From: a virus
Reading direction: 5' to 3' (one strand)
IMG/VR virus record: IMGVR_UViG_3300020463_000014
Span: 1-64,000 of that record
DNA length: 64,000 nucleotides
A program made the translations under genes and the position numbers. This document shows, in pieces, positions 27,301-56,482 of the stretch (its first letter is position 1; every line of letters starts with the position of its first letter). The notes under the pieces are model-generated. The model worked only from the letters and a program-made list of their open reading frames with translations, had not been told where the DNA came from and searched no databases.

Positions 27301-30300
27301 TTAAAACTACTAGAAGTTCCAGAAGTACTATCAGTCTCAACATTAACAAATTTAATAGCTAATCCGCTACCTGGGCCACCTGCAGTAGCCATCGAACTGG
27401 ATGGTGCAAGTTTATGACCACCGAGTGGAGTTACTGTTAAATTATTGTAGGGAGTATTTGCTGTTACACTTCCATTTCCACTAGTGGCGTCAATATTAAT
27501 AGTAAATCCATCGGGAAATGTAGAAACTGGTGTTGTAACTTGTGTATGTGTAACAATAACAGTCGGGGCTGTGCCTTTAATAAAGTCTTTGATATTCACA
27601 TCACCAATATAAAGTGTAGCACCACTATCAATATTTACATCACCATGAATGTCAAGAGTATAATTTGGATTAAATCCAGAAGCATATTTTGCAGTATTAT
27701 TATGAGGTCTCTTAGCAGTTTTACCAATCATAATATTGGTATTATTTAAACCTTTATTTACATAATTACTATCAATAATATTAGTACCAGAATCATTAAA
27801 GATCTCTGGCTTCATAATTACAATGCCATTAGTTAATCCAGTTGGAATGAATGTATTACCACCAATGAATATAGTCTTATTAGCAGTACCACCTACTACA
27901 GTTCCGCCATACTGCGCATTTGCTCCAGTTGTGTGTGAATCTTTCCAACCTGTACCAATTACAATATTATTAGCACTAGTATTATTAAGAAGACTATTAT
28001 CTTTACCAATTACATAATTATTATCTCCAGCGTTATCAAGTATATTACCTTCACCAATAATAATTGATTTATTAGCAGCCTTTGGAGCAGTATTAGATAA
28101 TCCAAATTTATTATCAATACCAAATGCATAAAGTTGAGTTCCAGTGTTGTTTGAATCTTGTAAATTACCTTCACCTAGGAACATGTTTTGATCTGTTATG
28201 ATTTCATTACTTTTACCAATCGCAATGGAATGATGACCCAAGTTGCCTGTTCGGCCAAGAGTCTGTTGACCTTTACTTACTCTTTGTCCAACTCTATTTT
28301 TATAACCAAGAGATACAGAAGCTCTTCCTTTGGCATAGGGTTGTTCACCCATTCCCATAGAAAAATAGCCTAAATCAGAATTTTGATGTTCACCTAAATC
28401 TATTTTACCAGCTCTTACTATAGCAGCTCTTGAGCTATATAAGAACATATTATTATATGTAAGACTTGCTGGCCCACCATCAGAATCAAATACTGCCGAA
28501 TCACCCGCATCATATAAAGTACTTTTTAGAATACCATCAACTTGAAAATCACCACGAACATCAAACTCAGTATTAGGATCTGTTTTTTGTACACCTATAT
28601 TTCTTGGCGCAGCTGTAAGAATAAATCTTCCATCATCTACAAATGGATTGCCGGCAATTGGAGCGCCACCTTCCGGATTGTTCTGAAAAATATTTCCGCC
28701 ATATATAATATTGCCGCCAACAAATAAGTTACCCGCACCGTCAATGGCATCAAACATATCAGATTCTCTACCAATTGATACGTTACCACCTTGAATAGCC
28801 ATAAGGTTATCATCTACAACAACACCCGGTATTGTTCTATTTGGATTACCTATGAGATCTGCACCAGCTCCATATATAGGAGTAGTAGTGACCATTTGAA
28901 AATTTATGCTTTTATTAGCAGTATTAGCAATGTGGCCATTCATACCAAATGCGTAAGAACTTTGTCCTGAGACTATATTTTCTCTACCAAATGCAAACGC
29001 ATCGCCGCCACCAACTTTATTATAAGAGCCAATTGCAAACGATAAAGCACCACCAACAGAATCTTCCACACCGAAAGCAAAACCAGCATTACTTTGAGCT
29101 GTGTTGTTTTGTCCAAGTAGAAAATTAAAATTGCCACCGGCCGATTTATTGCCAAGACCAATAAATACTTGTTCTTTACCACCATTTGATACAATATTGC
29201 TTTTACCTAAAATAAATGTATCATCACCCTTTGCAGCGTTTTCTGCACCAAGTAAAACATTTCTATCACCACCATCAGAATTGTTTGATCCAATACCAAC
29301 TGAATATATACCAGTTATTTTATTTTTGAAACCCATAGCAATAGAAGCAAGCCCGGCGGCTCGACTACTATCACCAGTTGCAAAGCTACTTTGACCAGAA
29401 GCTTTAACATTTAAACCAAAGGCTGCTGAAAAAAGACCTAACTCATCCCAAGCAAAATCCTTATGGTTTGTAAAGTATCCACCACGCGTTGATGCTTTTC
29501 CTGGAACAAACGAAAATCTAGATCCTTTAGCTGAATCAGCAAGAGCGCTTAGTGACGGATCGCCGTAATTAATTACAAGATCATGCGCCATAGAAATCTC
29601 GCCAGAGATAGCATCATTATAGTCTGCGCTTTGTGGAATTGATCCAACTCCTTGAAAGCCACCTTTTACCTGAAATGGCCCTCCATGAACTTCGAACCTA
29701 GATTTAGGTTTATCTGTACCAACTGCAATTCTACCAAATCCACCATATGGATAAGTTGCTTTAAAATCTCTTGGAACAAAAAATGCATCGTCTAGAGCGG
29801 TAGCAGTAAATAATCCACCACCTGTAAATGGTACACCATTTTGTAAGAGCTCGCCAGTAAAGTTAATACTACCATCTTTATGAACTTCAAATAAAGAACT
29901 ATCTTCAAGTGATATAGCTCTTATTAAAACTGAAACATCTGAATCGTTAGCGCTAACTCCATCACCTGGAAATCTTCTAAGATCTCTTCCACTATCTTTA
30001 TGTAAATCACTTTTAAAATAGTTAATAGGTAGAGTAGAAGTTAATGAATATTTACGCCCTGCAAATTCGGTAGAGTCACCATCAGTAGTTACGGTTAAAC
30101 CATAAAAGTCTCTGGCTTGAGAATCATTAGGATAAATTATTGAGTTTGGATCAATTGTTAACAATCCAGGTTTTGATTTGTATGAACCTACTTTAACTCC
30201 TGCAGCATCAACTACACCTGTATTCTTATCAACAACAAATCTATACCAGCCAGAATCTTGTATGATTTGTTCTGCAACCATAAGACCAAATCGAGTACCA

Positions 30301-31935: not shown

Positions 31936-31943
31936 TATTTATA
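31936..31943 (-). promoter_or_regulatory. T4-type late promoter for the giant fibre gene
   Basis: Exact TATAAATA on the minus strand, 41 bases before the ATG at 31895, in the 53-base gap after the 79-aa gene. Confidence 0.72.
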
Positions 31944-32197: not shown

Positions 32198-32587
32198 CTA
32201 TGTTGTTACTTGAGGAGAAAGTGTTAATTTTCCTTCTAGTATTCTTTCAACTACACCTAATCCTGTATTACTATCTGTTCCTTCTAACTCAACATCATAC
32301 ACATATCTACCAGCTTTCATACGGGTTGTTTGTGCATTTGTTAATGATAGTTGTAAAATATTTTCTTGATTAAGTGGGTTAAATGCTGTAACGTTAAATA
32401 ATTCAGCTGAATCTGTAGAATTATAGCTTTTTTTAATCTTACCTCTCATGAGATAATATGATCCAAACGTACCAGCATCTGAATCCCAATTGATTAAAAG
32501 TTTTCTACTTCCATCAGGATTAAATAATTCAAGTTGGATAGTAACGTCTGATCCTTGGTCGATTGTTAAGTCTTCGTAGTGTGCCAT
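32198..32587 (-). CDS. Small beta-rich virion-module protein, 129 aa
   Basis: The frame extends to a GTG at 32593, but that GTG overlaps the ribosome site AAGAGGTG, so the ATG at 32587 is preferred and gives MAHYEDLTIDQGSDVTIQLE. The sequence then has two beta-sheet halves (YYLMRGKIKKSYNSTD, TRMKAGRYVYDVELEG). Similar proteins with the EDLTIDQGSD start occur beside fibre genes in marine T4-like phages. It is the first gene of the fibre unit and has two tandem late promoter motifs upstream. Its exact role is unknown. Confidence 0.8.
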   Translation of the reverse strand: MAHYEDLTIDQGSDVTIQLELFNPDGSRKLLINWDSDAGTFGSYYLMRGKIKKSYNSTDSAELFNVTAFNPLNQENILQLSLTNAQTTRMKAGRYVYDVELEGTDSNTGLGVVERILEGKLTLSPQVTT

Positions 32588-32611
32588 ACCCACCTCTTAT
32601 CTATTTTACTG

Positions 32612-33546: not shown

Positions 33547-33572
33547 AAAGAGCTCTTAGGAGCTCTTTTTTT
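33547..33572 (+). terminator. Rho-independent terminator of the plus-strand unit
   Basis: Nine-base stem AAAGAGCTC and GAGCTCTTT around a TTAG loop, followed by an uninterrupted T-run to 33572. It lies just after the 81-aa gene. The TAA stop of the converging 191-aa oxygenase gene sits in the loop, so the hairpin may also end minus-strand transcripts, although their T-run is weaker. Confidence 0.85.
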
Positions 33573-34131
33573 GTTTAATAAAAATATCGACTGGAACAGC
33601 CAGTCTGAGATTAGAATGATATGTTTTTACTAGATGATAAACATATCCTGGCATAATTATTACATCACCAGTTTTAGGTGCGTACTCAATAGGTTTAAAC
33701 ATTTCGGCGGTTTTACCAAAATAACCTCTATTGGCATTTGCTCTTGGATCATATGACACTAGTTCTCCACCTTTATCAATATCATCAGAAAGAACATAAA
33801 ATACTGCAGCAAATTGAGCTCCAGAATGATTATGAATATTCATTGAATATCCCTTTTGAGATCCTGTTAACCAAGAACTAAATTCGTAAGACATATCATT
33901 TAGGTCGATACTAAATACTTCTTTAAAAAATTCTGAATATTTTTCTATAGCCAAATCTTTTAACAATGGAATTTTATCTGTAAGTGAACCACTATCGTAT
34001 TCAGCCTGTGGTTTCATAATATTAGTACTAAGTAAAATTTCTTGAACTAATTCTTCACATTGGTCTAAAGTAATTTGAGTTTTGTATATTGGTGTGGACC
34101 AACACTGATTAATACCCGATTTCAACATCAT
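33556..34131 (-). CDS. 2OG-Fe(II) oxygenase-like protein, 191 aa
   Basis: Predicted 2-oxoglutarate and iron dependent oxygenase, last gene of the modification cassette. The double-stranded beta-helix core shows MNIHNHSGAQFAAVFYVLSD with His100 and His102, then GGELVSYDPR, then GDVIIMPGYVYHLV with distal His166, and Arg176 (NLRLAV) as likely 2OG-binding residue. This HxH...H...R pattern resembles the TIGR02466-type putative 2OG oxygenases rather than the classic HxD. The typical reaction is hydroxylation of a protein or small-molecule C-H bond; the substrate is unknown. AAAGGAT precedes the ATG. The gene overlaps its upstream neighbour by 23 bases. Confidence 0.85.
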   Translation of the reverse strand: MMLKSGINQCWSTPIYKTQITLDQCEELVQEILLSTNIMKPQAEYDSGSLTDKIPLLKDLAIEKYSEFFKEVFSIDLNDMSYEFSSWLTGSQKGYSMNIHNHSGAQFAAVFYVLSDDIDKGGELVSYDPRANANRGYFGKTAEMFKPIEYAPKTGDVIIMPGYVYHLVKTYHSNLRLAVPVDIFIKQKKSS

Positions 34132-34513
34132 AATATCCTTTTATGTCACGAACCATACCATGAATTACCATCAATGGCCAATCTATATTGTTAAGTATAC
34201 TATCGTATATTTCCTTACTATTTTCGTATGTTTTAAAATATGGATCATTACCGGCTAAAAGCATTGGTTCATTTAACAAATCATAAAAATCTTCGTTAAA
34301 ATCTCTACTAATCCAATAAGCATAACATATTGCTACAACATAACTCTTGGCTGGATATAACCACTCATCTACTTTCTCATTAAAGTGTCGAATAGCATTT
34401 TTAATAATGACCTCTTGATTATCGTCAAAAACTATTTCTACTTTATTCAAATCATCTGTATGATTTTTATTTAATCTATGATAAACTTCTTGTTTAACTT
34501 GCCATTCTTTCAT
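34109..34513 (-). CDS. Cassette protein of unknown function, 134 aa
   Basis: A 134-aa soluble, mostly helical-looking protein starting MKEWQVKQEVYHRLNKNHTD, with an aromatic patch (DEWLYPAKSYVVAICYAYWI near residues 49-68). No metal-binding motif is visible. It overlaps the upstream radical SAM gene by 20 bases and the downstream oxygenase gene by 23, so it is tightly built into the operon. Its ribosome site is weak, which fits coupled translation. It could be a substrate-binding partner or small accessory subunit for the neighbouring enzymes, but this rests on context alone. Confidence 0.72.
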   Translation of the reverse strand: MKEWQVKQEVYHRLNKNHTDDLNKVEIVFDDNQEVIIKNAIRHFNEKVDEWLYPAKSYVVAICYAYWISRDFNEDFYDLLNEPMLLAGNDPYFKTYENSKEIYDSILNNIDWPLMVIHGMVRDIKGYYDVEIGY

Positions 34514-35402
34514 GATACCAATCCAATAATCCTCTATATCCGTTACAGCTATTATTTAAATCTTTGACATATCGATAATGCTCTGTTAAGCAGTTTCCAA
34601 AATACTTACATGAGGCGCATATAGGACTTATCATTTCTTCTTTTTCTTTGTTTGTCCAATCAATGTATTGTTTCCAAGAATCCAATTCAAGAAAGAATTC
34701 TTTATCCTCTTCATCAAATTCCAAGACACCAAATTTGCCAGAAGGAGTGATGTATATATGATCATCCGAAAATGCATTGTATCTTCCTTTCACTGATTCT
34801 ATAATTCTATCTTCATTTACAAATTCAAACTTCATAGTGTCTTTTAACTTAAGCCACTTTATAACAAAATCTTCAAAGTCTTTGTGGGTCACGTTATGTG
34901 CATTTGCTTGATTTATTGAATATGGTTTAATCTCAACAGATGTAATTGACGAGCACATATTCAACATATTAATCATTTCAGATACATCTTTTTCTAGCAC
35001 CTTTGGAGAAGCTAAAATCAAAACTGCAATAGGTACTGTACTCATTAACATATTATTAAATACAAGTTCAGACTTTTCTCTTGCTTCAAAATCATATGAG
35101 ACAGAAAGATATACATCATCATCAAAAAAGCCTGGATGCATCATAGAATAATTAGTATTGATGCTAATTTCACCTGAATAATATTTTCTTATAACATCTT
35201 TAATACCATAAAAATATGACTTTTTCATTGCACCAACTTCACCACCATATAAGTCAATATGTTCTATATCTGGCACTTGAGATAGCAACTCATCTAGTTT
35301 ATCAAATGAAATTTGTTTCTGATCACCAAGTTGCTTAGTAGATAGGTAGCAAAAATCACATCTAAAATTACAAAAATATGAAGGATTGATCGATACAATC
35401 AT
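34494..35402 (-). CDS. Radical SAM protein with C-terminal cysteine cluster, 302 aa
   Basis: Radical SAM enzyme. The [4Fe-4S]-SAM motif is CNFRCDFC (Cys11, Cys15, Cys18), and the SAM-binding GGE is LYGGEVG at residues 50-56. A shortened C-terminal domain has PICASCKYFGNC followed by a final cysteine (NNSCNGY), consistent with a twitch- or SPASM-like auxiliary cluster. Such proteins modify peptides or proteins by radical chemistry. The start overlaps the upstream oxygenase stop by one base (TAATG). It pairs with that oxygenase in the alternating pattern of the cassette. Substrate unknown. Confidence 0.88.
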   Translation of the reverse strand: MIVSINPSYFCNFRCDFCYLSTKQLGDQKQISFDKLDELLSQVPDIEHIDLYGGEVGAMKKSYFYGIKDVIRKYYSGEISINTNYSMMHPGFFDDDVYLSVSYDFEAREKSELVFNNMLMSTVPIAVLILASPKVLEKDVSEMINMLNMCSSITSVEIKPYSINQANAHNVTHKDFEDFVIKWLKLKDTMKFEFVNEDRIIESVKGRYNAFSDDHIYITPSGKFGVLEFDEEDKEFFLELDSWKQYIDWTNKEKEEMISPICASCKYFGNCLTEHYRYVKDLNNSCNGYRGLLDWYHERMAS

Positions 35403-36013
35403 TACCTAGATGGAAAGGAAATATTCATTACTACTGCAAGTCTATCTTCTTCACCATAATAAGGAGTTACTTCATGCCATACATGTGCCGGAACAATAAT
35501 AATTGTATTTTTTTCAGTCTCAATAGACATTTTAGATTTAGGTCTTGTTTTTATAACCTGGTTAAATGCTGGGTCATGAAAAATTAATTTGCCTCCATCT
35601 TTATCATTATCTACACAGTCTAAATAATAAACTGCAACCATCGAAGCACCACTATGACAATGCAAACCTTTATAATCACCATTTCTCATAAAGGGTAATC
35701 TTCCGGTGGTCTGTTCCATACGTTCTAAAATTTCAGCATGTGTAATTGATTCATCATATTCATTAGCTAGTTTTAAAAATGATTTCGCAAAAAAATCATA
35801 TAAATTTTTTATTTCATTATAATTTTTAATATTATCATCGGTAAAAAGCGGAATGTGTACTCCATCATCTCCACCATCTTGATATGAAAGACCGGCCATA
35901 GCTAAATGATTTCTAAATATTGCTTGGCATACTGAATTAAGAGTACTACTTTCTTCTTCATTAATATTATGTAACTCATGTAACATTTTTATTGGAAAAA
36001 TAGTTTTTATCAT
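35402..36013 (-). CDS. 2OG-Fe(II) oxygenase-like protein, 203 aa
   Basis: Second predicted 2OG-Fe(II) oxygenase. The motif KGLHCHSGASMVAVYYLD carries His118 and His120, GGKLIFHDP follows, then IIIVPAHVWHEV with distal His180 and DRLAV with Arg191. The spacing and HxHSGA core match the 191-aa oxygenase of the same cassette, so the two probably arose by duplication, although the remaining sequence is diverged. The start overlaps the preceding radical SAM gene as ATGA behind AGAGGGAA. A TATAAATA motif lies 41 bases upstream, inside that gene, and might give extra late expression. Confidence 0.86.
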   Translation of the reverse strand: MIKTIFPIKMLHELHNINEEESSTLNSVCQAIFRNHLAMAGLSYQDGGDDGVHIPLFTDDNIKNYNEIKNLYDFFAKSFLKLANEYDESITHAEILERMEQTTGRLPFMRNGDYKGLHCHSGASMVAVYYLDCVDNDKDGGKLIFHDPAFNQVIKTRPKSKMSIETEKNTIIIVPAHVWHEVTPYYGEEDRLAVVMNISFPSR

Positions 36014-37044
36014 GCGTATTCCCTCTCATACGGCGTCAATTGTCTATCGATGCTATTTATACTGATTATATCAGTTGCTAAAGTCTTCATATGTTTACAA
36101 TGATCTTCTACCATATTATGCTGTTTTAAATCTTTAATAGTTTTTTTACATCCATTACAAATTTCAAACATTGGACAAGTATAACACGCATTTTTTAAAC
36201 TCATTAAACTTAAATCTGTTGCAAGAGGTGTTGAAAACCCACCACTCATTTCATAATCAAAATCAATAGCCTTATCTAAATCATCACCAAATGCACCACA
36301 TGAATAGTAGTCACCTTCAGGTTGAAGTGTTCGAATGCCAGAATCACATGTTCTTGTCTGTGGACATATAGTAGATTCTCCTCTTAATCGTACCATCATC
36401 TGTTGAGTGTTATGTTCCCAATCGCTTAATCCAGCTTTCCATATTTCAACATAACGTTCATATATTTTTGATAATTGATATGGAGCAGACTGAGAACCTG
36501 ATGCCATGGCATAATTTACTTTACAGACTACATCCATTTTTTTTGCAAGTTCAACTGTCTTAATATGAGTATCTTCATTCTCTTCAACAATCACTGCTAT
36601 GAATGATGGTCTATATCCAACATGTTCTAGCATCGCATCTGAACACTTCCAAAAATCTTCTTCTGTAAACTCACTATAATCACCTTTTAATCTTCCTCCA
36701 CCATATTGAAATGATGTAGCTACACCAATTCGAGGATGGTTAAAAAGTTCTTTCCATTTCATTGGTTTCATAAGAAATGGATATAAATTTGTTGTAAGTG
36801 ATATTGTTGCCGGCAGATCATACTTATCAAGATACTCTATAATTTTCCAATAGTAATTTGGTTTCATCATTAATGGATCGCCACCATTAACAATAATTGT
36901 TTGAGTATCTGGAAAACGTTTTAAAAACTTAAATATCTTATTTAAATCAAGAGTAGCAGTATTATCTTCAAACGTAATTTTAGATGATGAACAAAATGAA
37001 CATTTAAAATTACACAATTCTGTTGGTTTGACAATTAGGTCCAT
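36010..37044 (-). CDS. Radical SAM/SPASM-type protein, 344 aa
   Basis: Radical SAM enzyme with CNFKCSFC (Cys11, Cys15, Cys18) and IIVNGGDPLM as the GGE-like loop near residue 53. The C-terminus is a SPASM-type region: TICPQTRTCDSG and YYSCGAFGDD near residues 225-253, then NACYTCPMFEICNGC near 285-300 and a last DHC near 320. Seven or more cysteines here can hold auxiliary Fe-S clusters, as in peptide-modifying maturases. It overlaps the preceding oxygenase gene by 10 bases and the next by four (ATGA). In the cassette this enzyme is flanked on both sides by oxygenases. Confidence 0.9.
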   Translation of the reverse strand: MDLIVKPTELCNFKCSFCSSSKITFEDNTATLDLNKIFKFLKRFPDTQTIIVNGGDPLMMKPNYYWKIIEYLDKYDLPATISLTTNLYPFLMKPMKWKELFNHPRIGVATSFQYGGGRLKGDYSEFTEEDFWKCSDAMLEHVGYRPSFIAVIVEENEDTHIKTVELAKKMDVVCKVNYAMASGSQSAPYQLSKIYERYVEIWKAGLSDWEHNTQQMMVRLRGESTICPQTRTCDSGIRTLQPEGDYYSCGAFGDDLDKAIDFDYEMSGGFSTPLATDLSLMSLKNACYTCPMFEICNGCKKTIKDLKQHNMVEDHCKHMKTLATDIISINSIDRQLTPYEREYA

Positions 37045-37580
37045 GGCGAATTATTAACTTTAAACCCAAAATTCATAGTGATTCTATGCATATCTGGATC
37101 TCTGAAATGTTCAACTCTATGTTCAAACTGTTTATCTTGGCTTCCTACTACTACATCGTATTTTTGAGGTAAATGAAAGGCTGTGATTCTATTATTCTGT
37201 GATATATTTCTAAACATAATTTCACCACCAGCGTCTTTATTCATATCAGTAAAATATAAAAGAAACATTATATTTGCACCTTCACAAAAATCATTATGCC
37301 AATTACACGAAGTTTGTTCAGTGCCATTCCAACAGTGATAATAAATCAAATCTTTTTTTTCTGAATATGGTCTTAAATACTGATTAAAAAGATAATCAGC
37401 AGTCATTAGCATTTTCTTTCGCATACCCAATATATAATAATTTAAAGGGAATCGATAATCTTTTCTATTACCAATACCTCTAAGCCATTTTATATTAGGA
37501 ATAGTATCTTCTAAATATTGAAACGCTTGAACGTTATTTTCTGTGTAAAATCCATCATCCATTTTCCAACCATTTTTCAC
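37035..37580 (-). CDS. Prolyl-hydroxylase-like 2OG-Fe(II) oxygenase, 181 aa (GTG start)
   Basis: Third 2OG-Fe(II) oxygenase, of the classic type. CNWHNDF gives the HxD pair His95-Asp97, GGEIMFRN follows, QFEHRVEHF gives distal His154, and MHRITMNFGF contains Arg166 for 2OG. The pattern is close to prolyl 4-hydroxylase-like enzymes. The start is a GTG at 37580-37578 that overlaps the upstream stop as GTGA, with AAAGGT about ten bases before; an ATG six codons later is an alternative. Two oxygenases in this cassette have HxH and this one HxD, so they are different lineages. Confidence 0.85.
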   Translation of the reverse strand: MKNGWKMDDGFYTENNVQAFQYLEDTIPNIKWLRGIGNRKDYRFPLNYYILGMRKKMLMTADYLFNQYLRPYSEKKDLIYYHCWNGTEQTSCNWHNDFCEGANIMFLLYFTDMNKDAGGEIMFRNISQNNRITAFHLPQKYDVVVGSQDKQFEHRVEHFRDPDMHRITMNFGFKVNNSPWT

Positions 37581-38722
37581 AGCATTTTTACCTTTTGTCT
37601 AAATCCATATGATAGATCATCTTCACCATCGCGTTTTGGTTTAAATCCTTTTGTTTTTTTAACGTAGTTAAACGTTTCTTTAAAAACACATTCTTCCATA
37701 TCGTTATGATCACCTGGCATATCAGCTTTTACAAAGCATGTGAATGGACAGTTTTCATAATATTCACACTCAAAACAATTATATTTTTTTAAAAACTTTT
37801 CTACCATCTCTCCTGTTTCAAAGGGTGTTTCACCAGTTTTTTTATCTCGCTGATATGCTACACCACAACATCCACCGGGTGATGAACCATCAGGCTGAAT
37901 AGTTATTGAATTACCTCTTGTACACATCATTGCACCAGTTTGATTCAATGGATCATGAAACGCATCCATGTTTTCACAATCAGGATAGTTATCCACTAAG
38001 TATTTGTTAAACGCTAATAGCTCACTATCTTTAGGAATTAATTTTGCATCTGCTTTAATTAATGGTGATGGCATATAAGCATCAAAATCAACTGGAAAGT
38101 TTTTATACAAATAATCAAAAGTGCTTTTATCGTTACTCTTTATAATTGTTTGTATATTTTGGCTAGTAGTAACAATTGAAACGTTTCTAATATAATCTTT
38201 AAAAGTCTCAACATTTTCTAAGAATATTTCTAGTTGACCTTTATTAAATCTACCTCTTGGATCATAAGAAGTTGAAAGCTTTATATCATGCTTATTACAA
38301 AAGTCCATAACTTTATCTGAATTTTTTTTATCAAACATAAAATTAGTAAGATAATTAAAATAAATTCTTTTGTTGCCGATGTTAATCTTGGATCTAACTA
38401 AATTCATAAATTCTTCATATACATCTAAAAAGCCTTTTTCAATCCATAGATCTTCAAATAATTCTCCACCTAATAGATGTAATTTATAGTCTTTTGATCT
38501 TGGCGAATTGTTAATAAATTTAGCAACAGTATCGCTTTTTGCTAAAATTTCTTCTCGAGTAGCTCCAACCATTGAGTTATGATCTTGCGGACAGAACACA
38601 CATTTTAAATTACAATGTTCAAAAAATATTATAACAAGCTCACTTGATCGAGTAATCTTGCTTCCTAAAATTTTGTATATATCAAAATCAAGTGGAGCTG
38701 GATTAATAGGTGCTACAGACAT
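37577..38722 (-). CDS. Radical SAM/SPASM-type protein, 381 aa
   Basis: Radical SAM enzyme with a 30-residue N-terminal extension. The cluster motif is CNLKCVFC (Cys37, Cys41, Cys44), and LHLLGGELFED supplies the GGE loop. The C-terminal region has GAMMCTRGNSITIQPDGSSP, GGCCGVAY, YNCFECEYYENCPFTC and EECVF, a SPASM-type cysteine set. The start is preceded by AGAGGT. The gene overlaps the B12-type radical SAM gene by ten bases. A TATAAATA motif lies 50 bases upstream inside that gene. It is one of four cassette enzymes with extra C-terminal clusters, typical of enzymes acting on ribosomally made peptides or proteins. Confidence 0.9.
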   Translation of the reverse strand: MSVAPINPAPLDFDIYKILGSKITRSSELVIIFFEHCNLKCVFCPQDHNSMVGATREEILAKSDTVAKFINNSPRSKDYKLHLLGGELFEDLWIEKGFLDVYEEFMNLVRSKINIGNKRIYFNYLTNFMFDKKNSDKVMDFCNKHDIKLSTSYDPRGRFNKGQLEIFLENVETFKDYIRNVSIVTTSQNIQTIIKSNDKSTFDYLYKNFPVDFDAYMPSPLIKADAKLIPKDSELLAFNKYLVDNYPDCENMDAFHDPLNQTGAMMCTRGNSITIQPDGSSPGGCCGVAYQRDKKTGETPFETGEMVEKFLKKYNCFECEYYENCPFTCFVKADMPGDHNDMEECVFKETFNYVKKTKGFKPKRDGEDDLSYGFRQKVKML

Positions 38723-40383
38723 TCTTTACTTACCTCTGACATAATTATATGTCTATTTTTTTCTATAAATTTATTTATAGTATTTGCTCTAAACTCTTGA
38801 TTTAAAACTTTAATGCTTTTTGGTTGAGAATTTGGATTAAATATATCTCTTATTTCAGAATGTATATCATCCCATCTATCTAATTTACTTATAACTTCAT
38901 ATGCTTTTTTAGTAAAGACTGACGGTGATAGACTATTTTCAAGCATAGGATAAAAGTGCTGCAGTAAATAATTTCCAGCACTATTCATAAACCACATTTC
39001 ATGCATTTCTTCAGTTGTAAACGAAAAGCATGATGATATTGTTTTAAAATACGATTTTTTATTTTTATACAAATTATTCCAACTATCTATCCCTTGTTCA
39101 TCTGCAATATCAGTGTAAACTTCAACGGTTCGAATATCATATTTAATTTTATATTCCTGAGAATTAAGCGCTGAATCTGGAAGAAACATATAATCATGTC
39201 TGTAAGAACCAAACGATTTAAAATTCCAGATATATTCCATTTCATTATAAAAGTCATCTATTGTAGAACCTGGCATTGCAAGGATCATTTCTAAATTAGG
39301 TATTGGAAACCCGTGCTTTGAACATTGCTCATTAATGTGTTTACTTAATTCTAATTTATCTTCTGTATTTAAATCAACTCTTTCAGCTATTTTCATTGCA
39401 ATGTCAGAACTGCTTTGAATAGACACTGATGGAACTATCGATATATTGGCCATCTCACTCCACATATCTTTTCCATTTTTCATATTTGGAGAAGTATAAT
39501 TTGTTCCAACGATTTCAAAATACTTATCAATTAATTTTTTTCTTCTATTTAAATCCTTAGATTTCATGGTAGAAATATCAGTTAAATTAAAACCATTTGT
39601 CCAAGCGTATTCGAATATTTCAAAGTCTCTTTCAAAAAAGGCTCCAAAGTTTGCATCATTTAAATAAGCAGATCTATAACCGGCTTTTAGCATAGCATTG
39701 ATATCACGTTTCACTATGCCCAAGGATTTCTTATAAATCTTTGTATTAATACCTCCACCCCATTCGCAGAACACACACTTATAAGGACAACCTCTTGTCG
39801 TCTCTAAAACAATAAACGGTTCCATTTTATTATTACGAGCGTATTTAAGTAATTTTGTAAGATATTCTAAATGATCTTCGTATACTGAATAATCTTCTTT
39901 TGACAAATCATGTATTAATTTTACATCAGATCTTAATTCCCATGGAATACTTGTTGGATCTATTCTGTTTTCAATAAACTGATCGATAAGCTCAGCCATA
40001 AATGGCTCACCTGGTTTAGTAGGTCTACAAATTAAATCGTACTGAGGACGTGATGTTAATAGTTCTGGTTCATTGGTTCCAATATGTGGACCACCTAAAA
40101 CTAGTATTTTTTCTGGATATTTATTTTTAATTTTATTAGAAATTTCATCACATATCATATAGTTCCAAGTATAAGAAGAAAACATAATTATATCTGCTTC
40201 GATTATATCATCTATTACTTCATCATAAGATTTATAGCTATTCCATTTATATGGTGATTCTAACCACTTTACTTTTTTACTATATTTGCCAAAACGAGAA
40301 TAGTAACTTTGCATTAATAAAAATGTAAAGTTATTTGCTAGTGACCAGTCAGCGTGAGGAGGATTAATAAATGCTATAATCAT
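38713..40383 (-). CDS. B12-binding-domain-type radical SAM protein, 556 aa
   Basis: Radical SAM protein of the class with a Rossmann-like cobalamin-type N-terminal domain (residues about 1-140; IIAFINPPH at the start and VLGGPHIGTNEPELL at 95-109). The radical SAM motif is CPYKCVFC (Cys199, Cys203, Cys206). No DxHxxG cobalamin-ligand motif is visible, as in many members. The C-terminal 250 residues have no SPASM cysteines. Relatives perform methylations, ring contractions and other C-C reactions on peptides, lipids or antibiotics. It lies between two unknown cassette genes and the radical SAM series. Ribosome site is weak. Confidence 0.9.
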   Translation of the reverse strand: MIIAFINPPHADWSLANNFTFLLMQSYYSRFGKYSKKVKWLESPYKWNSYKSYDEVIDDIIEADIIMFSSYTWNYMICDEISNKIKNKYPEKILVLGGPHIGTNEPELLTSRPQYDLICRPTKPGEPFMAELIDQFIENRIDPTSIPWELRSDVKLIHDLSKEDYSVYEDHLEYLTKLLKYARNNKMEPFIVLETTRGCPYKCVFCEWGGGINTKIYKKSLGIVKRDINAMLKAGYRSAYLNDANFGAFFERDFEIFEYAWTNGFNLTDISTMKSKDLNRRKKLIDKYFEIVGTNYTSPNMKNGKDMWSEMANISIVPSVSIQSSSDIAMKIAERVDLNTEDKLELSKHINEQCSKHGFPIPNLEMILAMPGSTIDDFYNEMEYIWNFKSFGSYRHDYMFLPDSALNSQEYKIKYDIRTVEVYTDIADEQGIDSWNNLYKNKKSYFKTISSCFSFTTEEMHEMWFMNSAGNYLLQHFYPMLENSLSPSVFTKKAYEVISKLDRWDDIHSEIRDIFNPNSQPKSIKVLNQEFRANTINKFIEKNRHIIMSEVSKECL

Positions 40384-40416
40384 ATTTCATTCTATACATT
40401 ACAAATTAAAAAATAT

Positions 40417-41547
40417 TTAAACTGTTACATATTTAGCAATAGTTGTTTTATCAGAAACAGAATTAGCATCCAGCAGTGAATGAATTAAATAATGATTTAC
40501 AGTTTCAAGTTCTAATGCAAAGAATTTTTCAGGTTCTTTATCATCTGATGATTCAATTAAAATAAGCTTATCTAATAGTTCATCTGTTAATTCAGTATTA
40601 ATTGCTGGTAAGAATTCTAATATGCTATCATCTCTTAAAGTAAAATCAGACCATTGACTTTCTATAATAGCTACAAACTCTTTAATAGTATTAAGATCTG
40701 AATCAGAAATATTTTCGAATATTACATTATCACTACTAGAAGCGCCACTTAGATATTTTATAGACCACATATCGTCTTTAATAAACAGTTGAGCAAATTT
40801 AGAAGTATCTGTAAAAATGTCATTAATATTATTTAATGTGTAAGTTTTGTCTAAATTTAATTTATCAGCAAAAGATTTAGTTAAGAAATGTTGGAAAAAT
40901 ATTTCCTTTAATTCGTAAAGATATTGTTCAAACACTTTTTTCAGCAAAGGTCTGACTACGCCTTTTAACTCTGCTTTTGAAGATTTGTCATTAAGATAAT
41001 TTGCTAGTAGATGTTCAACACTTATTGTGCTTTTATATTTTGCCATAAATGCTTTTTTCTTGGCAGCAGAAGGAGCTTTAACACTATCATAAATGGTATT
41101 GAAATTTTCTACTTTTAAAATTTCACCAGATCCTAATTTTGCATTATTACTTGAAAACCTGCCTCTAAAAAATGTATTAAATTTAAAAGCATGGGCTTTT
41201 ACTAATGATTCTACTGAATCAACTTTCGGAGTTTTTAAAATAAATTTATACCAAGTAGACATAATAAATTGAAATGCTGCACTATCACAATAAACAACGA
41301 TTCTTTTATTTGTAGAATCACATTTGGCAGCTAATTCATCAAAAAGAGTTGTAGCATCTTTAAACGTTTTATCTTTTCCTAGAATATCATTCCATTCAAG
41401 TCCATATGCAATGAGTTGACCAGATAATATTTTTTGAAGATCTTCTAAAAGATTAAAACCGTTACTTTGCGATACAACAATACGATCAAAATTTGGATCG
41501 ATGATATTATCTGTTGTTACATAAATCTTTTTAAACAGATGTATCAT
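40417..41547 (-). CDS. Cassette protein of unknown function, 376 aa
   Basis: A 376-aa soluble protein with no recognised domain. It begins MIHLFKKIYVTTDNIIDPNF; residues about 55-115 read like alternating helices and strands (RIVVYCDSAAFQFIMSTW), and the remainder is helix-rich with many Phe, Leu and Lys. It contains no cysteine motif for a cluster and no iron-ligand signature. The start overlaps the 215-aa gene as ATGA behind AGGAGAAC. Because it follows the CHxS-tailed gene in one transcript, it may be a recognition or scaffold protein for the modification enzymes. That is inferred from position only. Confidence 0.75.
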   Translation of the reverse strand: MIHLFKKIYVTTDNIIDPNFDRIVVSQSNGFNLLEDLQKILSGQLIAYGLEWNDILGKDKTFKDATTLFDELAAKCDSTNKRIVVYCDSAAFQFIMSTWYKFILKTPKVDSVESLVKAHAFKFNTFFRGRFSSNNAKLGSGEILKVENFNTIYDSVKAPSAAKKKAFMAKYKSTISVEHLLANYLNDKSSKAELKGVVRPLLKKVFEQYLYELKEIFFQHFLTKSFADKLNLDKTYTLNNINDIFTDTSKFAQLFIKDDMWSIKYLSGASSSDNVIFENISDSDLNTIKEFVAIIESQWSDFTLRDDSILEFLPAINTELTDELLDKLILIESSDDKEPEKFFALELETVNHYLIHSLLDANSVSDKTTIAKYVTV

Positions 41548-42191
41548 AACTGTTCTCCTGTGGCGATAGCGCTTGTTATTAAAAACATTGGGTTATTAAC
41601 ATTCGCCCAATAACTAAATAGATTATTTCCTTTAAACATATACTCATTAAAGTATGATTTATAATATGTTTTATGATGTTCAATTACATTGGCATAAAAT
41701 AGATAAAAGCTTTCATATTTAAGTAAATTTACAAAATTTATTCCAGTTAGATCTTTTGTGTCATCTTCTGGAAATGATTTAACATAGTCTTTTAATTCAT
41801 CGCATTCAACTGTGTACAAATTATAAAGCGAAAGTGAATCTAATTTCTTAGCCCAAGTAGTAAGTATTTCAACGTTATCATCAATAAAATCTTTTTCTAT
41901 TAATTCACTAATACCTTTCATCTGTAATAATAAACTAATTACTCTTTCTTCAAGGATAGGAATACTTATAATAAAATTAGCTAAAAGATATTCTCTAGTA
42001 AGATCATCAAAATCTTTTTGATCAGTAAAACCAATATTACATGGCAATTCCAGATTACTGAGATATGTTAATAGCTTTGTTCCCTGCAATTGTGAATTTT
42101 CATAATCAACTATATAAAAAGTTTGATCATCTTCAAAATACAATTTCAAATCTTCAATACTAAATGGTGCAGTAACATCAATAACTTTCAT
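41544..42191 (-). CDS. Cassette protein of unknown function, 215 aa
   Basis: The start is placed at the ATG at 42191, which overlaps the stop of the CHxS-tailed gene (ATGA) behind GAGGAAG; an upstream in-frame ATG would overlap that coding tail further. The product begins MKVIDVTAPFSIEDLKLYFE, and then has long helical stretches rich in Leu, Asp and Lys, plus an aromatic C-terminal third (YKSYFNEYMFKGNNLFSYW). No domain recognised. Direct translational coupling to the putative substrate gene makes it a candidate chaperone or peptide-recognition partner, but no RRE-type winged helix can be claimed from the sequence by eye. Confidence 0.75.
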   Translation of the reverse strand: MKVIDVTAPFSIEDLKLYFEDDQTFYIVDYENSQLQGTKLLTYLSNLELPCNIGFTDQKDFDDLTREYLLANFIISIPILEERVISLLLQMKGISELIEKDFIDDNVEILTTWAKKLDSLSLYNLYTVECDELKDYVKSFPEDDTKDLTGINFVNLLKYESFYLFYANVIEHHKTYYKSYFNEYMFKGNNLFSYWANVNNPMFLITSAIATGEQL

Positions 42192-42751
42192 CTTCTTCCT
42201 CTCGAGCCATGGCAACTGCTATGACAACTTGCATGACAAATATTAATATTTACAGTAACGGTATTGGAAACTAAATTATTAAAACGTGTCTGTAAGTCTG
42301 TAAATTTAGCTTCAAGACCAGAAGCACTAATTTGAGTACCAGCAGTTAAAGTAACTCCAGCTGCAGATAACGTTTGTGCATAACTACTGTTTAAATAAGC
42401 TTTTGCTGTTTGATTAAAAATTTGTCCAGGATTAGGATATGTTCCTGTATTACCACCAGGACCTGTTACTGTTCGAATTGCATTTAAATTTCTAATTTGA
42501 CTATACGCAGCGGTTTCATTTTCAATTGCAGTATTGATAACAGAAGCAGTGATTGGATTTTGATTTATATCAGCTCCAGTAATTCCAATGCTTCTACCAG
42601 CAGTTGTTCCACCAAAATATGATGTAGCAAATCCACTAAACGGAACTGAATTGGTACCCCAAACAATACCAGAGTTTGCACTTGCCGGCGCAAAATCCGC
42701 AAATCTATCTATTATATTCTGTGCGTTAATTGGACTTGTTAATGTAGCCAT
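42188..42751 (-). CDS. CHxS-tailed late protein, candidate substrate of the modification cassette
   Basis: A 187-aa protein in two parts. Residues 1-171 are Ser, Thr, Ala, Gly and Asn rich and resemble virion or fibre sequences (GTNSVPFSGFATSYFGG, VTGPGGNTGTYPNPGQ), and contain no cysteine and no histidine. The last 16 residues are CHASCHSSCHGS plus RGRR: three CHxS tetrads at 172-183 and a basic end. His-x-Ser repeats beside radical SAM genes recall, but are not shown to belong to, the HxsA system of bacteria. It has a late promoter and a strong AGAGGA ribosome site. A RiPP-type precursor or a modified virion protein is the inference; a metal-binding tail without modification is the alternative. 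Confidence 0.85.
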   Translation of the reverse strand: MATLTSPINAQNIIDRFADFAPASANSGIVWGTNSVPFSGFATSYFGGTTAGRSIGITGADINQNPITASVINTAIENETAAYSQIRNLNAIRTVTGPGGNTGTYPNPGQIFNQTAKAYLNSSYAQTLSAAGVTLTAGTQISASGLEAKFTDLQTRFNNLVSNTVTVNINICHASCHSSCHGSRGRR

Positions 42752-42777
42752 TTCATTCCTCTTTTGTTATATACGTG

Positions 42778-42785
42778 TATTTATA
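42778..42785 (-). promoter_or_regulatory. T4-type late promoter for the CHxS-tailed gene
   Basis: Exact TATAAATA on the minus strand, 27 bases before the ATG at 42751. It overlaps the TAA stop of the upstream radical SAM gene. The same octamer precedes genes 13, 18, 25 and the fibre genes, so the candidate substrate and the downstream cassette genes are probably expressed with virion genes. Confidence 0.72.
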
Positions 42786-43800
42786 CATGTTTTGCGAGTT
42801 CCATCATTAAACTTTTTGGTGCACCACAAATATCTCCATCCCATCCTAATTGATGACAATCACCTCCACAAAATCTAGATACAGGGCAAGATAAACAATT
42901 AGGATTACGCATTTTTTCTTCTAATATAGTACGAATTCTTTTTGGACTTTTTAACAATGTATCAATTGAATCATCTAAACTTCCAAAAGCTTGTTCAGGC
43001 GCACTATTTGGGCAGCCTGCAATAGTTCCATCTCCATTTATGGTAAATAGTTTTTGTTCACAATCTCTACAAAATGTTCCACACGTAGTCATAGTCTTTT
43101 CAAATTTGGCATATACATTTTCTAAAAAGTCATTTTCAAACCAATCCCTTGCTCCGTGCTTTTCACTTTGCATGTGCATTTTTAAAAAATATTCATCAAG
43201 TTCTTTATTGCTTGGAAATATTTCTGATGCTTCTCGGGCACTACCATTATTAGTTAGTCTTTCCAGTGAAACTTCTTGTACACCAAGTCGCCGGCACCAT
43301 CTTAATAATACTATAGGATCTTTTGCAAGTGTATCTTTTGTAAGACTAATAAACAAACGAATAGTAACACCGTTTGCTAAAAGTGTTTTAACATTTTTAT
43401 GCCAAAGATTATATTGGTTTTTATTTTCAAATCGAATCTTACGATCCCACGATGTGCCAAGTCTATTTCCAAGAGGACCTTTAATAAAATCCATATGTTG
43501 ATCTTTTAATTTGAAAACTAAATTAGTTGTAGCACCCCACGACATTTGATTCCATAAACCATCACATGCATCATATACCTTTCGCATTTGGCCAACCGGT
43601 ACAAGAAACGGTTCACCACCATGAAATTCCATATGTATAGAATCTTGTGTTGCAGGTTTTTCTTTTCTAAATCTATGAATCCAGTCAACTAGCTTATCAG
43701 TATTCCAATAAATCTTTTGACCGCTTCTTCCACTGGTAAAACAGTGTGCACAATTAAGCTGACATGTTTCTGTTGTTTTGAGATACATCAGCCAGTTCAT
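42781..43800 (-). CDS. Radical SAM/SPASM maturase-like protein, 339 aa
   Basis: Radical SAM enzyme most like peptide and sulfatase maturases. The cluster motif is CQLNCAHC (Cys13, Cys17, Cys20), and MEFHGGEPFLVP supplies the GGE loop. The SPASM region is complete: TTCGTFCRDCEQ near residue 240, INGDGTIAGCPNSA near 263, then CLSCPVSRFCGGDC near 300-314 and DICGAP near the end. It lies immediately upstream of the CHxS-tailed gene, the usual neighbour position for a RiPP maturase. AGAGGA precedes the ATG with a slightly long gap. It overlaps the cupin-like gene by 47 bases. Confidence 0.92.
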   Translation of the reverse strand: MNWLMYLKTTETCQLNCAHCFTSGRSGQKIYWNTDKLVDWIHRFRKEKPATQDSIHMEFHGGEPFLVPVGQMRKVYDACDGLWNQMSWGATTNLVFKLKDQHMDFIKGPLGNRLGTSWDRKIRFENKNQYNLWHKNVKTLLANGVTIRLFISLTKDTLAKDPIVLLRWCRRLGVQEVSLERLTNNGSAREASEIFPSNKELDEYFLKMHMQSEKHGARDWFENDFLENVYAKFEKTMTTCGTFCRDCEQKLFTINGDGTIAGCPNSAPEQAFGSLDDSIDTLLKSPKRIRTILEEKMRNPNCLSCPVSRFCGGDCHQLGWDGDICGAPKSLMMELAKHV

Positions 43801-44281
43801 TATTAATTTTATCCTCTGTATAATTTTCTAAACCAAAGCTTAACGTCAATGCTTCATCTTTATTTAATGCTTGATGAGGTGTATAAGCTGGTATATGTAT
43901 ATATTCTCCTTGGATAATAGTCACTGGCTTATTATCAATTATTAAAGATTTAGATCCTTCACAGCAATATATAACAACATCATCTGGATCAGTATGCATA
44001 TCGAAAGAATAAGATCCAGCCGCTGCAAAAAATAAATGACATGTTACATGCTGTTCATGTTTCCAATCAGTTTTTATTTTCCAACAATATTCATATATTG
44101 TTGAATTAAAGTTTTCCATACGTTCGATTTTTATAGAATGGTTTTGTTTTTGCACTTTGCAAAAATCACTGAAACTAGTAATTAGCTGTTCACGACCCTG
44201 TTCATCTATAGCATAAACCATATTTTGTTCATACATATGACTCGCAGTAAGTGCAGATATGAGTTGAGATTTATTAATCAT
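43754..44281 (-). CDS. Cupin/JmjC-like oxygenase, 175 aa
   Basis: Predicted cupin-fold protein. FDMHTDPDDVVIYCCEG carries an HxD pair (His96, Asp98), and GEYIHIPAYTPHQALN carries the distal His136, the layout of JmjC- and ribosomal-oxygenase-type 2OG-Fe(II) enzymes. It would be the fourth non-heme iron oxygenase of the cassette and its first gene. It could also be a non-catalytic cupin. A weak -10-like late motif (TAAAAATA) lies about 16 bases upstream and there is no clear Shine-Dalgarno sequence, so its expression level is uncertain. It overlaps the radical SAM maturase gene by 47 bases. Confidence 0.78.
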   Translation of the reverse strand: MINKSQLISALTASHMYEQNMVYAIDEQGREQLITSFSDFCKVQKQNHSIKIERMENFNSTIYEYCWKIKTDWKHEQHVTCHLFFAAAGSYSFDMHTDPDDVVIYCCEGSKSLIIDNKPVTIIQGEYIHIPAYTPHQALNKDEALTLSFGLENYTEDKINNELADVSQNNRNMSA

Positions 44282-44323: not shown

Positions 44324-45883
44324 TTACACTTTAAGGATACATTCTATCAATTTTTCTTCATCTACAGTAGACGATTCTAAAGCTACACCTACCATCATAG
44401 CTCCATTAAATTCTTTACTTGCTCGGCCATTATGGTGTGTATATACTGGATCACCTTTATGAACTCCACCAATAACCCTTACTGGAACTCTTCCCTTAAG
44501 ACCTAAAGCTTGACCAGGAGCGTCTGCATTCATTAAATAAGCAGGTTGAGCTGAAATTACGCCGACTGGAATTCCGCTTGATGTGCAAGGAGTAGTTTCT
44601 TCAGTTTTATTAAATGACGCCATCATTACTGTTCCAACTGGATGCTCTTCACTTGTAGTATATTTTTCTGCAAGGTCAGCATAATTTGCAGTTTGAGCAT
44701 TACCAGCAACTGTACCGGCAGATAATGTTTGTGTTGATGGATTATACATTAAATGCCCATTATCAGTATCAATATAAGGTCTTTGATAACCTGTACCATT
44801 ATTATCGCTAAATAATACTTGGTAATTTACATCGTCATTTTTTTCATCAACTTTTACAAAATCGGCCTCGCCTCCAGAAACTGTACAAGCACCAGTATTT
44901 GCCATTGTAACATGACCAGATAATGCTGCAGTAGTAAAACCTGAGCCATTACCAATTAGAATTTGAGTGTCTGCTACTATAATATCTGAAGGATCTGATG
45001 CTGAAGAACTATTTCCAACTTTTACTGAATTTGCTGGCATATTAGCAAGCTTATCATTAGTCACAGCATCATCAGTTATTTGACCTGTTATTACTTGTCC
45101 TGCCTGAATACCTCCAGATGCTTGGCGACCAATTACAGTATTAGTTCCTGCTTGTACAGAGCCAATATCACCAGCAGCTGATCTACCAATAACTGAATGA
45201 TCTGGTATTGCTAAATCTCCTGGATCACCACTAGTACCTGCCTGGCGAGTTTTTATTGTATATCCTGCCATATTAGCAAGCTTAGCATTAGTTACTTGAT
45301 CATCTGATATCATATCAGTTTGAATTTGCACTTCTTCAACTGTGCCCGCTGTTGTTTTGCCAAGAACTCTATTTGCAGTTACAATGTCTTGCATTTTATC
45401 ATAGGTCACAACATCAGGCTGAATTGTGACCACGCCGGCGTTTGTCATAAGAACATCTTGAGATAAAGCGGTAGATGTAAAACCAGTTCCATTACCAATT
45501 AAAATTTGTTCGTTAGTAACTGCCTTATTTGATGATGCTCCAGTAGTTCCTGCATCTCTTACTTTAACAGTGTTTGCTGGCATATCTTCTAATTTAAGAC
45601 CAGATGCTTCTTGAGTTAAACCGTGACCACCTGCTACTGAAAATGTTCCACTTGAATCTCCAGTAAGGTTTCCACCAACGCTAGTCTTTAAAATTCCATT
45701 TCCTGCATTATAGTTTCTTCGCACTGCTTTACTAAAATTTAAGGCTGTTACTATACTTGAATCATGGCCAGCATAGTCACTACTAAGATTATCTAGATCA
45801 CCGATCTGAGCAGCAATAGTATTAGATTTTACTCTAAAAGTGTTAATTGTATCACTTAAATTTATAACTGTCTGTCTAGCCAT
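44324..45883 (-). CDS. Fibre protein with Peptidase_G2-type C-terminal domain, 519 aa
   Basis: A 519-aa fibre-type protein. Residues 1-390 contain repeated beta motifs such as ILIGNGTGFTSTALSQDV, ILIGNGSGFTTAALSGHV and ANMPANSVKVGN, typical of trimeric phage shafts. From about 395 the sequence matches the C-terminal Peptidase_G2 (autoproteolytic IMC) type: YADLAEKYTTSEEHPVGTVM, GIPVGVISAQPAYLMN, LKGRVPVRVIGGVHKGDPVY. Such domains assist trimer folding and are often removed by self-cleavage; whether this copy cleaves is not visible. The start overlaps the coiled-coil gene by eight bases. It belongs to the baseplate unit upstream, not to the radical SAM cassette. Confidence 0.85.
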   Translation of the reverse strand: MARQTVINLSDTINTFRVKSNTIAAQIGDLDNLSSDYAGHDSSIVTALNFSKAVRRNYNAGNGILKTSVGGNLTGDSSGTFSVAGGHGLTQEASGLKLEDMPANTVKVRDAGTTGASSNKAVTNEQILIGNGTGFTSTALSQDVLMTNAGVVTIQPDVVTYDKMQDIVTANRVLGKTTAGTVEEVQIQTDMISDDQVTNAKLANMAGYTIKTRQAGTSGDPGDLAIPDHSVIGRSAAGDIGSVQAGTNTVIGRQASGGIQAGQVITGQITDDAVTNDKLANMPANSVKVGNSSSASDPSDIIVADTQILIGNGSGFTTAALSGHVTMANTGACTVSGGEADFVKVDEKNDDVNYQVLFSDNNGTGYQRPYIDTDNGHLMYNPSTQTLSAGTVAGNAQTANYADLAEKYTTSEEHPVGTVMMASFNKTEETTPCTSSGIPVGVISAQPAYLMNADAPGQALGLKGRVPVRVIGGVHKGDPVYTHHNGRASKEFNGAMMVGVALESSTVDEEKLIECILKV

Positions 45884-56474: not shown

Positions 56475-56482
56475 TATTTATA
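56475..56482 (-). promoter_or_regulatory. T4-type late promoter for gene 25
   Basis: Exact TATAAATA followed by G on the minus strand, 26 bases before the gene 25 ATG, in the 43-base gap after the spike gene. Confidence 0.74.

Follow-up and report, generated by a model that had tools for sequence, protein, structure and literature searches.

We analysed a window of 64,000 nucleotides (positions 1 to 64,000 of the 76,239-base IMG/VR virus record IMGVR_UViG_3300020463_000014), which carries a cassette of thirteen genes. Our favoured reading, to which we give a probability of about 0.72, is that this cassette is devoted to the post-translational maturation of one of its own products, the CHxS-tail protein T, that modified T enters the virion and presents its tail to the host, and that a homologous set in predatory bacteria works likewise. 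The evidence strongly supports T as the substrate of the cassette, and we infer that T is modified. In large tailed phages and in some predators, a conserved set of at least four radical S-adenosylmethionine (SAM) enzymes beside a small CHxS-tail protein, its Cys-His-x-Ser end nearly invariant, suggests a previously undescribed chemical finishing of a cell-contact protein.

T has 187 amino acids (aa) and its C-terminus is CHASCHSSCHGSRGRR, with the tail written as ICHASCHSSCHGSRGRR; the general tail of phage T proteins is (I/V/Y)CHxSCHxSCHxSRGRR. Scanned as degenerate DNA, the tail pattern was found in at least 119 stretches of viral contigs and in 13 stretches of bacterial or archaeal assemblies, whereas a control with His and Cys swapped gave 0 matches in the same kind of scan and 0 were expected by chance in shuffled window sequence. 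The tail first noticed in this one protein is genuine and far above chance. It is conserved in 138 distinct T proteins behind at least eight N-terminal families that are mutually unrelated by BLAST, and residues that the pattern does not force are nearly fixed among the 138 (S/N at -9, S/A at -5, G/S at -3). By profile comparison, the two largest N-terminal groups are alike over their last 57 residues. T proteins range from 120 to 310 aa and have a folded domain. The AlphaFold2 model of T, a monomer prediction, has a confident domain with a predicted local distance difference test score (pLDDT) of 85 and a low-confidence tail. It matched nothing in the PDB by Foldseek at E<=0.001. T gave nothing significant against Pfam, NCBIfam or PDB profiles, and no NCBIfam precursor family scored above its cut-off. 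Matches of the T model in the BFVD viral library include the T of Agrobacterium phage Atu_ph07, which has no detectable sequence similarity to it beyond the tail. Three larger BFVD proteins of the metagenomic phage Myoviridae sp. ctijX18 (A0A8S5USJ7, A0A8S5USJ8, A0A8S5USV2) are weakly similar to T in fold (E 1.5e-3 to 8e-3).

The cassette genes, the adjoining fibre gene and the promoter motif in front of T are:

44324..45883, minus strand: F, tail-fibre-like protein directly upstream of the cassette (phrog_22593/19602; cluster in 87 loci)
43754..44281, minus strand: C, cupin_2/JmjC_2-like putative protein hydroxylase
42781..43800, minus strand: RA, lead SPASM radical SAM enzyme, 339 aa, with invariant CxxxCxxC and further Cys
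42778..42785, minus strand: T4-type late-promoter motif TATAAATA, 34 nt upstream of the T start codon
42188..42751, minus strand: T, CHxS-tail protein, putative substrate and virion protein
41544..42215 (start probably 42188), minus strand: u, universal partner and candidate adaptor or chaperone, 223 aa (phrog_20767)
40417..41547, minus strand: v, common but not universal protein, 376 aa (cluster of 82 ORFs in 81 loci)
38713..40383, minus strand: B12-binding radical SAM enzyme, accessory, 556 aa
37577..38722, minus strand: RC, core radical SAM enzyme with C-terminal Cys cluster, 381 aa (family searches)
37035..37580, minus strand: 2-oxoglutarate (2OG)-Fe(II)-type oxygenase, accessory (HxD...H...R 100% conserved in 52 relatives; Pfam silent)
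36010..37044, minus strand: RB, core radical SAM/SPASM-like enzyme, 344 aa (53-62% identity to cultured jumbo phage proteins)
35402..36013, minus strand: PF13759 2OG-Fe(II) oxygenase, accessory (Pfam)
34494..35402, minus strand: RD, core radical SAM enzyme, 302 aa (family searches and PHROGs)
34109..34513, minus strand: 134-aa protein, phrog_20737 (similar gene in 18/23 complete loci)
33556..34131, minus strand: PF13759 2OG-Fe(II) oxygenase, accessory (Pfam)

The sequence-only reading had staked its case beforehand on the radical SAM genes and the CHxS gene occurring together, and they do. A reverse search from RA found the strict tail in 74 of 80 loci; the other six are cut or have fewer than 300 bases downstream, and T adjoins in 74/74 loci with enough room. 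In lineage 1, with gene order F-C-RA-T-u-v-..., RB, RC and RD are all encoded in the 23/23 loci with at least 8.5 kb downstream, and RA is missing solely in three loci whose contigs break off within 200 bases upstream of T. T, u and the four radical SAM enzymes RA, RB, RC and RD are the core of every complete lineage-1 locus, and the oxygenases (16/23, 6/23 and 14/23) and the B12 enzyme (12/23) are variable accessories; v is also variable (17/23). In lineage 2, T genes come as a tandem pair and are joined by u, by another partner protein (x31) and by a separate radical SAM family (R2), with RC in some loci. In several of its loci (L016, L043, L071, L088 and similar) the tandem T genes follow a fibre gene and there are up to five R2-type enzymes, and the lineage also occurs in contigs binned as Rhodobacteraceae (L139, L142, L146). 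The partner u is kept in both phage lineages and in the predators described below, and is a good candidate for an adaptor or chaperone. Its AlphaFold2 monomer is confident (pLDDT 96) and matched nothing in the PDB by Foldseek at E<=0.001; u, v and x31 gave nothing against the PDB or against one another.

Cultured phages also carry the set. By tblastn against 50,697 phage records, RA and RB both matched the same seven: Agrobacterium Atu_ph07 (twice), Sinorhizobium Phosso, Burkholderia FLC6, FLC8 and SURPRISE13, and Pseudomonas pPa_SNUABM_DT01. T was read in one record per phage kind (Atu_ph07, Phosso, FLC6, pPa_SNUABM_DT01). The radical SAM enzymes served as queries here; tblastn with T itself gave one chance-level piece only against cultured phages, the tail being probably masked by the low-complexity filter. 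The same method found no cultured phage relative of the B12 enzyme, nor of lineage 2 with x31 or a short T as query. In papers on the carrier phages, the radical SAM and oxygenase genes appear as annotation entries and nowhere else (PMC11898562, PMC8066314). The cassette is missing beside most relatives of the adjacent baseplate protein, and also from a locus (L239) with complete flanks whose baseplate protein is 72% identical; it is thus an accessory module. At the cassette site, L239 has genes of 308, 205, 191, 205 and 163 aa within the same fibre gene order.

The system had been described as a phage system. It is one in phages, but a phage-only system is ruled out by chromosomal loci in predatory Bdellovibrionota. 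RA homologues (E<1e-60) were found in 18/369 Bdellovibrionota genomes and in 13/129 genomes of the order of a Halobacteriovoraceae assembly. Several of these loci have plainly chromosomal surroundings; some come from metagenome-assembled genomes, a limit that does not touch the one on a 4.15-Mb contig beside an rRNA operon. The predator loci read with T contain T, u, RA, RB, RC and RD, one being cut within u at the edge of the region. The RA tree places 15 of 16 Bdellovibrionota sequences in one supported group amid those of phages and the remaining one apart from it, the root being set by a distant outgroup only. A protein with a prepilin-type N-terminus is among the neighbours in six predator loci, and Peptidase_S74, the intramolecular chaperone of phage fibres, is also present in all three of the six that were tested. 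On the 4.15-Mb contig (L312, G110:C1, 12076-13796), and also in L311 and L314, the protein is a hybrid with a PF07963 prepilin N-methylation motif and Peptidase_S74; it is followed by a protein of about 190 aa ending WGPEG..I.VNGRHWVKIK, with a small MNRR-type protein of 122-132 aa nearby.

The predator tails vary (CHSACHDNCHSSRGRR, YCHTNVPTPPPCHASRGRR, YCHGNFPPPCHGSRGRR, YCHSNHCSHSNHGSRGRR, WCHSSHSSHSSHSSRGRR, ICHSNCYTPPPKSRSRR) and share an aromatic or aliphatic residue, C-H-x-[SN] and a terminal SR[GS]RR. All variants, for example WCHSSHSSHSSHSSRGRR and YCHTNVPTPPPCHASRGRR, keep the core enzymes. Since a single-Cys tail of HSS repeats goes with the same four radical SAM enzymes, the core chemistry is probably directed at the first Cys and the HxS units, or at the Arg end, and not at Cys 2 and 3 as such. 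These variants also bear on the proposal that the Cys/His-rich tail is an unmodified metal-binding tip (Zn, Fe or heme-like) and that the cassette acts on fibre proteins, host molecules or a metabolite. CHxSCHxSCH could bind metal, phage spike tips do bind metal through His and Cys, and 2OG oxygenases also stand alone in phages (phrog_81 is assigned to moron/auxiliary metabolism). However, phages of several host groups pair T with the radical SAM core, as do predators that lack the neighbouring phage fibres, and tails with a single Cys or a PPP insert that keep four radical SAM enzymes fit the evolution of a substrate better than a fixed metal site. We consider an unmodified metal tip unlikely. 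Heme c binding through CxxxCH was rejected on the one-Cys and PPP-insert variants.

The enzymes themselves point to work on peptides or proteins. The five radical SAM proteins proposed earlier (34494, 36010, 37577, 38713, 42781) are backed by Pfam, NCBIfam and PHROGs. The radical SAM core is marked by PF04055 matches, with C13, C17 and C20 invariant across 30 RA proteins; so are the SPASM/Twitch auxiliary residues C302, C305, C311 and C315, and TIGR04085 is above its cut-off in RA. Against NCBIfam and PDB profiles, RA and RB matched best to DynA, PapB, anSME and CteB-type enzymes (dynobactin, ranthipeptide and sulfatase maturases), which with the SPASM matches indicates peptide or protein substrates. 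The claim of four enzymes with C-terminal Cys clusters stood for RA (42781) by SPASM score and weakly, under the cut-off, for RB (36010); in RC (37577) and RD (34494) the Cys pattern is read from the sequence alone. Likewise, the B12-type domain of the 38713 protein is B12-binding-like though under the Pfam gathering score (PF02310, 28.6 vs 32.1 bits), and this protein matches the KedN5-type methylase NF033712 at 1e-22, below its cut-off. Of the four non-heme iron oxygenases claimed, the 37035 protein and the cupin at 43754 hold by motif, their HxD...H triad being 100% conserved (52 and 68 relatives). The two PF13759 proteins (33556, 35402) have HxHxG...H...R with the Asp of HxD unconserved in 57 sequences, so that their assignment as oxygenases is drawn from family membership; such a pair without a conserved carboxylate recalls the carboxylate-lacking centres of iron halogenases. 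JmjC_2 enzymes, the family of the cupin, are protein His/Arg hydroxylases.

The position of the cassette agrees with the original description. All thirteen mechanically called ORFs lie on the minus strand at the coordinates first given for them, mostly overlapping or abutting. Baseplate wedge genes of T4 type (gp25/gp6/gp8-like) and the tail-fibre-like gene at 44324-45883 precede the cassette, and an L-shaped tail-fibre assembly gene (32198-32593) flanks the other side, as in the likeness drawn to T4 genes 9-12. The G+C content of the cassette centre is 0.27-0.32, below most of the flanking DNA (0.32-0.38). Further downstream, an ORF of 4508 aa (18369-31895) probably encodes a fibre or other structural protein.

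T probably belongs to the virion, as judged from its gene position in Atu_ph07 and from late-promoter enrichment, and the suggestion that the cassette product is a virion part is supported by both. In a passage of PMC6102473, the authors call coding sequences (CDS) 170-215 of Atu_ph07 rich in virion proteins detected by mass spectrometry. T is gp170, the first CDS of this stretch; the numbering agrees with the paper, since the record gives gp215 as the major head protein. A stretch that ends in a detected virion protein most probably also starts with one. The motif TATAAATA occurs at 14 sites in the window, against 16 expected and thus without excess, all on the coding strand (e.g. 42778-42785, 31936-31943, 56475-56482), which is consistent with T4-type late promoters. 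In AT-rich contigs it lies within 100 nt in front of 34/119 T genes, compared with 0/79 for u, 1/55 for v, 6/210 for the radical SAM genes (R) and 0/61 for R2; one oxygenase group also carries it (12/49). Scans for sigma-70-type promoters and terminators gave chance-level results.

The virion position bears on a further possibility, that the cassette makes a secreted or injected peptide of the ribosomally synthesised and post-translationally modified peptide (RiPP) kind, a toxin or signal, with T cleaved and its modified tail released onto the host or competitors. SPASM radical SAM enzymes are typical RiPP maturases, and the tail is short, constant and terminal. Yet most RiPPs show the opposite of a constant tail behind a variable folded domain, none of the cassette genes was recognised as a protease or exporter, and T of Atu_ph07 lies at the edge of the stretch described as rich in virion proteins. 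A released peptide is in our judgement improbable, more so than a metal tip, and a classic RiPP cluster was rejected on the folded, 120-310 aa T and on the NCBIfam precursor families, none of which T matched above cut-off. Ordinary auxiliary metabolic genes (cofactor, nucleotide or lipopolysaccharide-modifying) gathered in a variable region, as published annotations calling such genes accessory or metabolic (PMC11898562, PMC2853527) and some close relatives without the cassette might suggest, are a very improbable identity and were rejected on the fixed core and the tail that is invariant across widely different phages and bacterial chromosomes, and none of the cassette radical SAM enzymes reaches the NCBIfam equivalog cut-off of a known metabolic enzyme.

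For the maturation of T by the cassette, we suggest the following course, in which all steps after the transcription of T are what we infer. T, a small folded domain of variable sequence with a flexible C-terminal tail, would be made late in infection from its own late promoter. RA, RB, RC and RD may then act in turn on tail side chains, as SPASM enzymes do on peptides, assisted by u in all loci and by v and the JmjC-like cupin in most. The cupin and other oxygenases would hydroxylate residues, perhaps His or Arg, and the accessory 2OG oxygenases and the B12 methylase-like enzyme could add lineage-specific decorations. The chemistry is most likely thioether or carbon-carbon type cross-linking together with His/Arg hydroxylation. 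Finished T would join the virion near the tail fibre or baseplate with its rigid, cationic, modified tail toward the host surface; in predatory Bdellovibrionota the homologous set may do the same for a pilus-like surface fibre. The tail is most likely a contact-making tip toward host or prey.

Several points weigh against this course. Atu_ph07 gp170 is a probable and not a confirmed virion protein, placed by the boundary of the stretch given in PMC6102473. Several T loci lie in the neck region and not beside a tail fibre (L021), so that a role at the fibre tip is not general. The radical SAM families of lineage 2 are mostly different from those of lineage 1. The Pfam matches of the cassette include no protease or exporter family, and leader peptide, protease and transporter were not systematically searched. 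The viral contigs are fragments with many near-duplicates.

The system is widespread, with at least 119 viral contig stretches and cultured jumbo phages of Agrobacterium, Sinorhizobium, Burkholderia and Pseudomonas. Phages and predatory bacteria with homologous sets both must dock to another bacterium. We tentatively raise the idea, at somewhat less than even odds, of a class of protein maturation common to both, in which at least four radical SAM enzymes jointly turn a conserved C-terminal HxS-repeat tail into a cross-linked, non-standard tip that is displayed on the virion or on a predator surface fibre and engages or breaches the envelope of another bacterium. T and u add two protein families with confident models that match no solved structure, beside at least four co-conserved radical SAM enzymes, and in the cultured carrier phages mass spectrometry would give direct access to this chemistry. 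Peptides and a few enzymes are known to be matured by radical SAM enzymes, and we know of no virion protein finished in this manner. A description of a phage radical SAM/RiPP or virion-maturation system was not found among the open-access papers searched.

Among known systems, the His-Xaa-Ser radical SAM system HxsABCD (Haft and Basu 2011, named in NCBIfam; cited in a passage of PMC9062424) also has H-x-S repeats at the target C-terminus and more than one radical SAM enzyme. The T of predator L326 is the sole T that matches HxsA (TIGR03979), weakly and at its HSS repeats (E 0.008, 16.1 bits vs cut-off 121.65). RA scores 34.8 bits against HxsB (cut-off 370) and RB 27.7 against HxsC (cut-off 267.9), and membership in HxsABCD was rejected on these missed cut-offs. 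Unlike HxsABCD, the system includes u and v, counts four radical SAM enzymes in its core, occurs in a phage or surface-fibre context and has T ending in SR[GS]RR. Multi-enzyme radical SAM modules occur in other T4-like phages, in the five-gene clusters of Campylobacter phages CP220 and CPt10, but these include an amidinotransferase and have been read as metabolic (PMC2853527), and tblastn with RA or RB gave no match in them at E<=1e-3/1e-4. Predators recognise prey by S74-type chimeric fibres (PMC10769870). The pilin-S74 hybrids carry the phage-type S74 chaperone as do these Bdellovibrio MAT fibres, for which no radical SAM enzymes or CHxS proteins are described (PMC10769870). Protein C shares with the JmjC_2 ribosomal oxygenases of YcfD/MINA53/NO66 type the cupin fold family, HxD...H and the Pfam JmjC_2 match, although it is much shorter and is an accessory in a cassette. 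The core enzymes resemble the SPASM peptide maturases (DynA, the PapB/CteB ranthipeptide and thioether enzymes, and the anaerobic sulfatase maturase) in joining a radical SAM domain to auxiliary Cys clusters, but score far under the equivalog cut-offs, and the putative substrate is a folded protein of 120-310 aa and not a short precursor. We regard the system as a variant of radical SAM-directed protein maturation; proof that its tail is modified and exposed at the surface would make it a new class.

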